Source: an uncultured Leptolyngbyaceae cyanobacterium (GTDB lineage Bacteria; Cyanobacteriota; Cyanobacteriia; Leptolyngbyales; Leptolyngbyaceae). From it: a DNA stretch of 43,618 nucleotides. This document shows, one piece after another, positions 1 to 35,394 of the stretch. The notes under the pieces are model-generated. The model was not told the origin of the DNA, made no database searches, and saw nothing but the letters and a program-made list of their open reading frames with translations. Each line of letters opens with the position of its first letter. The stretch's first letter is position 1. The stretch spans positions 1-43,618 of the forward strand of contig CALIDI010000059.1 of NCBI GenBank assembly GCA_938023035.1, given 5' to 3'. The translations under genes were made by a program, and so were the position numbers.

Positions 1-264
1 ATGTCCGGTGTGGGCCTACAACAGATGTCGGGTGTCGGGATGATGTCCGGTGTGGGCCTACAACAGATGTCGGGTGTCGGGATGATGTCCGGTGTGGGCC
101 TACAACAGATGTCGGGTGTCGGGATGATGTCTGGTGTGGGCATTCCCGGGTACGCTATGTCGGGTGCGGCGCTCACCATGTCGGGTGTCGGGATGATGTC
201 CGGTGTGGGCATTCCTGGGTACGCTATGTCGGGTGCGGCGCTCACTATGTCGGGTGTGGGTATG
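1..264 (+). repeat. In-frame tandem repeats (42 bp x3, then 69 bp x2)
   Basis: Three consecutive 42-bp units (1-42, 43-84, 85-126) are identical. Two 69-bp units follow (127-195, 196-264) and differ at only a few positions. Every unit begins with ATGTC(C/T)GGTGTGGGC and all lengths are multiples of three, so gain or loss of units keeps the frame. The array may extend upstream of base 1. Confidence 0.9.
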
Positions 265-582
265 TCGGGCGTTGGTTTCTCGGCTTCGGCTCCACCGATT
301 CGCCCGCGTCAGTTTTGGCTGGTGGCTGATGCTGAATTGATTGTCTATGGCGCAACAGAGCCAGATGCTAGTGTCACTATCGGTGGTCGCACAATTCAGC
401 TCAATCCGGATGGAACGTTCCGTTTTCAGATGTCCTTCCAGGATGGCATGATTGATTATCCAATTTTGGCGATCGCCGCTGATGGCGAGCAAACTCGAGC
501 CATTCATATGCAGTTTACCCGTGAGACTCCAGAGCGGCGGACAAACTCCAAGGAAGAAGCTCAGTTGGAGTGGTTGAGTTAA
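1..582 (+). CDS. DUF4912 domain protein with N-terminal MSGVG repeats, 5'-partial
   Basis: The reading frame is open from the first base and the repeat is in phase there, so the gene almost certainly begins outside the window. Residues 1 to about 92 are a Met/Gly/Val-rich repeat (MSGVGLQQMSGVGM and MSGVGIPGYAMSGAALT units). Residues about 100-193 match the conserved C-terminal part of cyanobacterial DUF4912 proteins (FWLVADAELIVYGATEPDAS, then NPDGTFRFQMSFQDG and DYPILAIAADGEQTR). That part reads as a compact beta-rich domain. No function is established for this family that I can name. A strong terminator follows 57 bases downstream, so this is the last gene of its transcript. The family call is good; the role of the repeat is unknown. 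Confidence 0.8.
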   Translation: MSGVGLQQMSGVGMMSGVGLQQMSGVGMMSGVGLQQMSGVGMMSGVGIPGYAMSGAALTMSGVGMMSGVGIPGYAMSGAALTMSGVGMSGVGFSASAPPIRPRQFWLVADAELIVYGATEPDASVTIGGRTIQLNPDGTFRFQMSFQDGMIDYPILAIAADGEQTRAIHMQFTRETPERRTNSKEEAQLEWLS

Positions 583-25628: not shown

Positions 25629-25970
25629 TCAATCATGAATGATGCCGTCTGCCATCTTTGCCCCCTTTAGGTTGGCAGAAGTTAAGTTTGCTCCTTCTAA
25701 CTTTGCCCAGCTTAAATCGGCACCTCTTAAGTCAGCCCATTGTAAATCAGCACCTCGCAAATCGGCCCACCGCAAGTTCGCATGGCGCAAATTCGCCCTT
25801 ACAAGGTTGATACCTTTTAAGTTAATACCACTAAGATTGGCTGAGCTGAGGTCAATGTTTTGAAAATTCCTTTCCCCCGCAGCAAGCAGCATTTGGAGTT
25901 CGATGGTGTCTATGCTGTTAAACCTAACATAATTTCCCCGGTGCTGCTGGTTTTGTGCTAGTGTCTTCAC
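25629..25970 (-). CDS. Pentapeptide repeat protein (113 aa)
   Basis: The protein starts with GTG at 25970. A short N-terminal lead (about 35 residues, including LQMLLAAGERNFQNIDL) is followed by about twelve A(D/N)LXX pentapeptide repeats such as LRHANLRWADLRGADLQWAD. Such repeats fold into a right-handed quadrilateral beta helix; some family members mimic DNA and inhibit gyrase, but most are uncharacterised. The GERNF lead also appears in similar form (GQRDF) in the second protein at 26880. It is divergent from the RRM gene. A later ATG at 25892 is a possible shorter start. Confidence 0.85.
   Translation of the reverse strand: MKTLAQNQQHRGNYVRFNSIDTIELQMLLAAGERNFQNIDLSSANLSGINLKGINLVRANLRHANLRWADLRGADLQWADLRGADLSWAKLEGANLTSANLKGAKMADGIIHD

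Positions 25971-32901: not shown

Positions 32902-35394
<2,493 letters not shown>

Follow-up and report, generated by a model that had tools for sequence, protein, structure and literature searches.

The DNA analysed here, referred to as the window (43,618 nt, C59:1-43618), starts at a contig end (its bp 1) and opens inside a gene. An open frame at 1..582 of the + strand forms the 3' part of this gene; it encodes 193 residues followed by a stop codon and is open on its 5' side, at the contig end. Three identical 42-bp units, MSGVGLQQMSGVGM, occupy 1..126 of the + strand (at 1-42, 43-84, and 85-126), and the period of 42 is exact over positions 1-131 (131 nt). Two 69-bp units, 96% identical to each other, lie at 109..246 of the same strand (109-177 and 178-246), the initial 18 bp of the first (109-126) being also the end of the last 42-bp unit. 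The two periods are divisible by three and in frame, and repeat comparison within the open frame 1-582 bears out the original prediction of three identical 42-bp units and two near-identical 69-bp units. The motif tract does not end at 264, as had been proposed, but continues to 279: a seed, MSGVGMSGVGF (247..279, + strand), near invariant in alignments of relatives, adjoins the C-terminal domain. The latter (301..516, + strand) is a conserved beta sandwich, probably of Ig-like type, according to profile search, alignment, and structure prediction, and is not DUF4912.

The chance of three synonymously identical 14-codon units is P ~4e-13 under the contig's codon usage, a value that is approximate because this usage was taken from mechanical ORFs of at least 250 codons. 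The two MSGVG halves inside each 42-bp unit differ in their synonymous codons, which indicates that the 42-bp block itself is the copied unit. Elsewhere in the window, tandem repeats with periods of 15/30 bp are found at 25713-25769, 34678-34740, and 34982-35088; judging from the period only, these are perhaps pentapeptide-repeat genes.

The 5' part of the gene and the domains of its product

The repeats had been thought to precede a DUF4912 domain and possibly to form a tail. Pfam profile searches found no DUF4912 in the window piece, and the genome's best match to this domain lies near the end of contig C45, upstream of the repeats. Synechococcus elongatus gave a DUF4912 match as well. There, an ORF (L001) encodes a Rho_N domain (PF07498) at residues 8-47 (48.8 bits, E 6.9e-13; curated cut-off 24.9 bits), followed by DUF4912 (PF16258) at residues 96-210 (150.7 bits, E 2.7e-44; curated cut-off 29.4 bits), and then runs off the contig inside a 42-bp unit. 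Both scores, far above the cut-offs, place the product among the PF16258 and PF07498 proteins, although neither model covers the repeat linker or the C-terminal domain. Ahead of this gene, the C45 frame at L001:1-334 resembles, by eye, the end of a glutamine synthetase gene.

With a 119-nt query, the 42-bp unit was detected at only two places in its own genome, the end of C45 and the start of C59, where the copies are distinguished by two synonymous differences (CAG for CAA and GTT for GTC). The periodic stretch at the end of C45 measures exactly 119 nt, and this length and the 131 nt of C59 would both fit an assembler stopping at a k-mer loop; no contig carrying the missing middle of the array was found in the genome. 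In the congener G001, whose sequence is the same as that of the named locus L010 of Leptolyngbyaceae cyanobacterium M33_DOE_097, all parts lie within one frame of 529 residues. We infer that C45 and C59 carry two halves of one gene. Because the two contig ends bear different synonymous variants, they do not overlap, and the array thus comprises at least about six 42-bp units. As read from these sequences, the order in the protein is Rho_N, DUF4912, array, and conserved C-terminal beta domain, so that the array connects DUF4912 to a separate domain as an internal linker and is not a tail. Upstream extension, which had been suggested as a way to reach the true start, recovered the Rho_N/DUF4912 part on C45, position 1 being a contig end and not the gene start. 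We found no conserved neighbourhood for the window's gene: where neighbours are conserved, this holds for some subsets of the named loci only, and the gene next to it on C45 belongs to none of the 14 largest neighbour clusters listed.

In the AlphaFold model of the congener's protein (43 sequences, mean pLDDT 48.6), Rho_N and DUF4912 are folded and the array has a pLDDT of at most ~31, in agreement with the flexibility that had been anticipated. In the model of the window piece, the C-terminal beta sandwich (residues 111-170) reaches pLDDT values of ~82-95, the 42-bp units appear as short strands at ~50, and the 69-bp units stay at ~27-37. The array is predicted to be disordered. Foldseek returned no match at E <= 0.001 for either model; its best value for the C-terminal domain against solved Ig-like domains was 1.8e-3. 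VIA matches to DUF4912 are largely FN3-like (Z <= 7.5), a resemblance that might reflect nothing more than a widespread arrangement. Together, Foldseek and VIA suggest an FN3-like DUF4912 and an Ig-like C-terminal domain, neither decisively. The congener's Rho_N model superimposes on the Rho/RNA complex 2a8v with a Z of 6.4 over 46 residues (rmsd 2.2), a Z below 8 being weak by itself. Glucodextran_B (PF09136) was considered for the C-terminal domain and rejected, at 14.8 bits against a curated cut-off of 27 (12.9 and 14.3 bits for L010 and L012, respectively).

Linker expansion in relatives and paralogues

A scan of genome contigs yielded 328 relatives, the best 80 of which by E-value were kept as named loci. 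The linker is unexpanded in 68 of these best 80, with 2-5 SGxG motifs, one of them usually within SGVGMW; this class includes L083 and L086, which show modest expansions of other kinds. It is expanded in 12, nine with MSG[VAMI]G arrays (L010-L013, L020, L025, L048, L066, and L073, with L013 from Spirulina subsalsa) and three of SSY type (L014, L016, and L038). Because the 80 were the best of 328 by E-value and MSGVGMSG was among the search peptides, 12/80 is not a random census. Expanded lineages carry from 6 to 71 SGxG, the highest number among named loci being that of L025. In the window's own family, the C-terminal domain is present in 41 of 42 genomes, and at least six SGxG occur in 10 of the 39 fetched loci taken as Rho_N type (maximum 41). 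Other sequences have also multiplied in this linker: SSYALSSY-type units in L014, L016, and L038, with exact repeats of up to 257 nt in L014; QHVAGS/QHVPGS-type arrays upstream of the MSGVG region in L115, L116, L120, L122, and L174; and eight SGLTM units in L142.

In a 105-row tree of the domains, with the linker removed, the window pairs with G001 with 100/100 support. The array trait, scored in 15 rows, needs six changes on this tree, which points to several separate expansions. The array-bearing rows belong to the window's genus, to CCP2 (L011), to a clade of Pantanalinema and family genomes (9/11 rows), and to Spirulina (three rows). The tree left out L016, L020, L036, L048, L066, L084, and L096, which are truncated or devoid of needed parts, as well as seven duplicates, L006-L010, and all loci from L132 on (mainly PBP type).

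The 42-bp copies of the window are identical to one another, against only 7/23 synonymous third positions that agree with the last common unit of the congener G001 (35/68 in the domain). The G001 array shares no exact stretch longer than 20 nt with one array end of this genome and 15 nt with the other. This pattern of recent homogenization upholds the proposed recent expansion. A fixed unit number with diverged codons in related genomes was to speak against it; between species, both the number and the order of units differ. Motif counts are 7, 7, and 17 in the congeners G011, G012, and G013, and 9 and 8 in G040 and G041 (14 and 33 in their paralogues), while the window's gene has at least 17 and its paralogue 5 (both entered by hand). 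Unit number thus differs among close relatives, as in hypervariable coding tandem repeats, here between species and congeners, each species being represented by one genome. As far as sequence comparison goes, recent in-frame expansion and variability between species are well supported. Since arrays break short-read assemblies, public genomes probably understate their copy numbers.

Two further genes of the window's genome fuse a PBP_like_2 domain to DUF4912 and lie on contigs C10 (L002) and C51 (L003) of G000. One product has a single DUF4912 and shares the linker seed and the C-terminal domain with that of the window's gene; the other has three DUF4912 domains and shows neither of these features. 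A single copy is found in 9 of the 15 genomes searched via named loci (completeness not given), including those of L012, L013, L020, L025, L048, and L066. In 35 of the 42 family genomes (G002, G003, G007, G008, G010, G022, and G039 being left out because a copy was absent, cut short, or not detected), arrays occur in both genes in 8, in the Rho_N gene alone in 2, in the other alone in 0, and in neither in 25. Fisher's test for arrays in both versus neither gives 1.9e-6, but phylogenetically independent pairs number only two, and the array link between the paralogues is therefore tentative. G049 has an SSY array, and its PBP-type paralogue has none.

Differences between copies fall mostly at third codon positions (297/192/1527 mismatches at positions 1/2/3 over 24 MSG arrays, 22 of them with countable pairs, L116 and L122 having none), and 1291 of the codon differences in the same 24 arrays are synonymous against 447 others; L170, the other G042 copy, is truncated at its contig end and has no row in this comparison. 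L115 (2 synonymous, 18 not) and L020 (15 and 16) run against the trend. This third-position excess indicates that the arrays are held at the protein level. In 19 arrays, the offsets between exact repeats of at least 24 nt are multiples of three in 1730/1730 pairs, which overlap and are not independent; 493/501 SGxG motifs have V, A, M, or I at the variable position, and the motif serines are encoded by TCN in 501/501. The same holds for 194/194 motif serines of the 68 unexpanded loci, whereas AGY encodes 36% of the remaining serines in these ORFs. This shared codon choice in arrays and seed makes it most likely that the arrays arose through duplication of the seed, growing in frame from a TCN-codon stretch. 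With a two-pentad DNA pattern, 48/48 matches in five genomes fell within the two paralogous genes, and no occurrence in other proteins was found in these five genomes with this one exact pattern. The arrays consist of 26-39% Gly, 12-29% Met, and 0-6% Pro (24 MSG arrays), and D, E, K, R, and H are absent from 11/19.

Known systems and possible roles of the array

Pfam gives no function for DUF4912, and our literature searches found it named only in a cotton expression table; searches for the pentad motif strings gave no match, and none was found for an elastin-like low-complexity protein of cyanobacteria. As far as the literature searched shows, the protein family is unstudied, and the locus is a case, within this family, of a known phenomenon, coding tandem repeats in a low-complexity linker. 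Elastin and elastin-like polypeptides are built of VPGXG pentads. The original prediction could name no structural repeat like the MSGVG array, and a loose likeness to these pentads had been overlooked: both are glycine-rich, hydrophobic, nearly uncharged tandem pentads, for which disorder is predicted here. Proline is absent from the MSG[VAMI]G pentad; with so little proline, the array is not an elastin-like polypeptide as defined by Pro-Gly pentads, and would work like one at most, without being a member. In elastin, according to PMC5703643, hydrophobic chains stay disordered and hydrated during aggregation owing to a high combined Pro and Gly content. A second likeness is to yeast Pbp1 (ataxin-2), whose Met-rich low-complexity domain, in the section cited, forms redox-sensitive condensates that dissolve on oxidation (PMC8394241). 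That protein also combines a Met-rich, aromatic-poor stretch with RNA-binding-type domains, as described in the same section (PMC8394241), but it is eukaryotic, and the methionines of our array sit in regular Gly pentads.

We propose, with chances that we judge to be evenly balanced, that this array, grown in frame and constrained at the protein level, is a disordered, Gly/Met-rich linker with hardly any charge, and that self-association through it increases with the number of copies. The near-invariant MSGVG beside the C-terminal domain would have been multiplied by repeated in-frame tandem duplication, via replication slippage or unequal recombination, and a long array would still be turning over. 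As a hydrophobic, disordered sticker chain, the array would make the protein self-associate with a strength set by the number of units; it might also join the PBP-type paralogue, and the Rho_N end may bring RNA. Tandem duplication would then act as a quick and reversible dial on linker length and valency. A more specific version, which we regard as unlikely, is a bacterial, redox-tunable condensate scaffold. In this version, an RNA-binding Rho_N protein of a phylum without Rho would have turned an ancient Met/Gly pentad, several times over, into an elastin-like sticker array through which it assembles; photosynthetic oxidants would dissolve the assemblies by oxidizing their many methionines, and duplication would tune the threshold between species. 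With the same motif present in relatives at anything from a few copies to 71, the arrays form a natural series in which the effect of linker copy number on bacterial self-association becomes testable.

The serious rival, less probable in our view than self-association but well ahead of the other alternatives, is a neutral spacer that need only stay in frame, soluble, and unstructured, its length being driven by slippage without function. Most relatives keep a short linker, so that the array must be dispensable for the core function, expansion is sporadic, and the multiplication of unlike sequences (SSYALSSY, QHVAGS, SGLTM) at the same place in other species suits a tolerant spacer. Such a spacer would account less well for the third-position bias between copies, for the limitation of the SGxG variable position to V, A, M, or I, and for the near invariance of the seed in aligned relatives; young arrays, for their part, could display some of this constraint signal by descent alone. 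The repeats might be ordered and stack as a beta-solenoid or fibril, as the strands modelled by AlphaFold in each 42-bp unit of the window could suggest. The low pLDDT of these strands, the still lower values over the 69-bp units and the congener's array, the irregular unit lengths, and the high Gly content all point away from such an assembly, which we consider improbable.

Gene conversion, by which copies would be passed between the two paralogues and drive the expansion, would explain why the motif is found in both genes and why the two genes of a genome usually either both carry arrays or both lack them. In the one genome compared, that of the window, only 8/26 synonymous third positions of the linker and 28/58 of the domain match between the paralogues, which argues against recent conversion and makes this explanation very unlikely. 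An assembly artefact appears scarcely credible: the contig does break inside the repeat, as do 4/12 expanded named loci against 0/68 others (counts entered by hand), but arrays are also carried by the one-contig genomes G011 and G015, they remain open frames, and the breaks are a result of the repeat. We give just as little credit to a DNA-level element, a recombination or regulatory repeat that happens to sit in a gene, despite the exact identity of the copies, because the spacing of the repeats preserves the reading frame and most differences between copies fall at third codon positions; neither a single pattern run on five genomes nor the 119-nt query run on the window's own genome turned up a related repeat outside a coding frame.

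RHON1 is a chloroplast Rho-N protein with a Rho-N type module. The module is what the window's gene product has in common with it, the difference being that it is joined here to DUF4912 and the C-terminal beta domain. By its sequence, this product is probably RNA-binding and is a candidate RNA factor. The cited portion of PMC13289151 refers to RHON1 for Rho-like termination in plastids and for support of RNase E, and reports only seven weak BLAST matches to it in the phylum, of 30-54 residues (PMC13289151). Cyanobacteria are reported there to be without Rho, and most transcription units of Synechococcus elongatus to end by no known pathway (PMC13289151). L001:1216-1360 thus encodes a Rho_N protein in a phylum reported to be without Rho.
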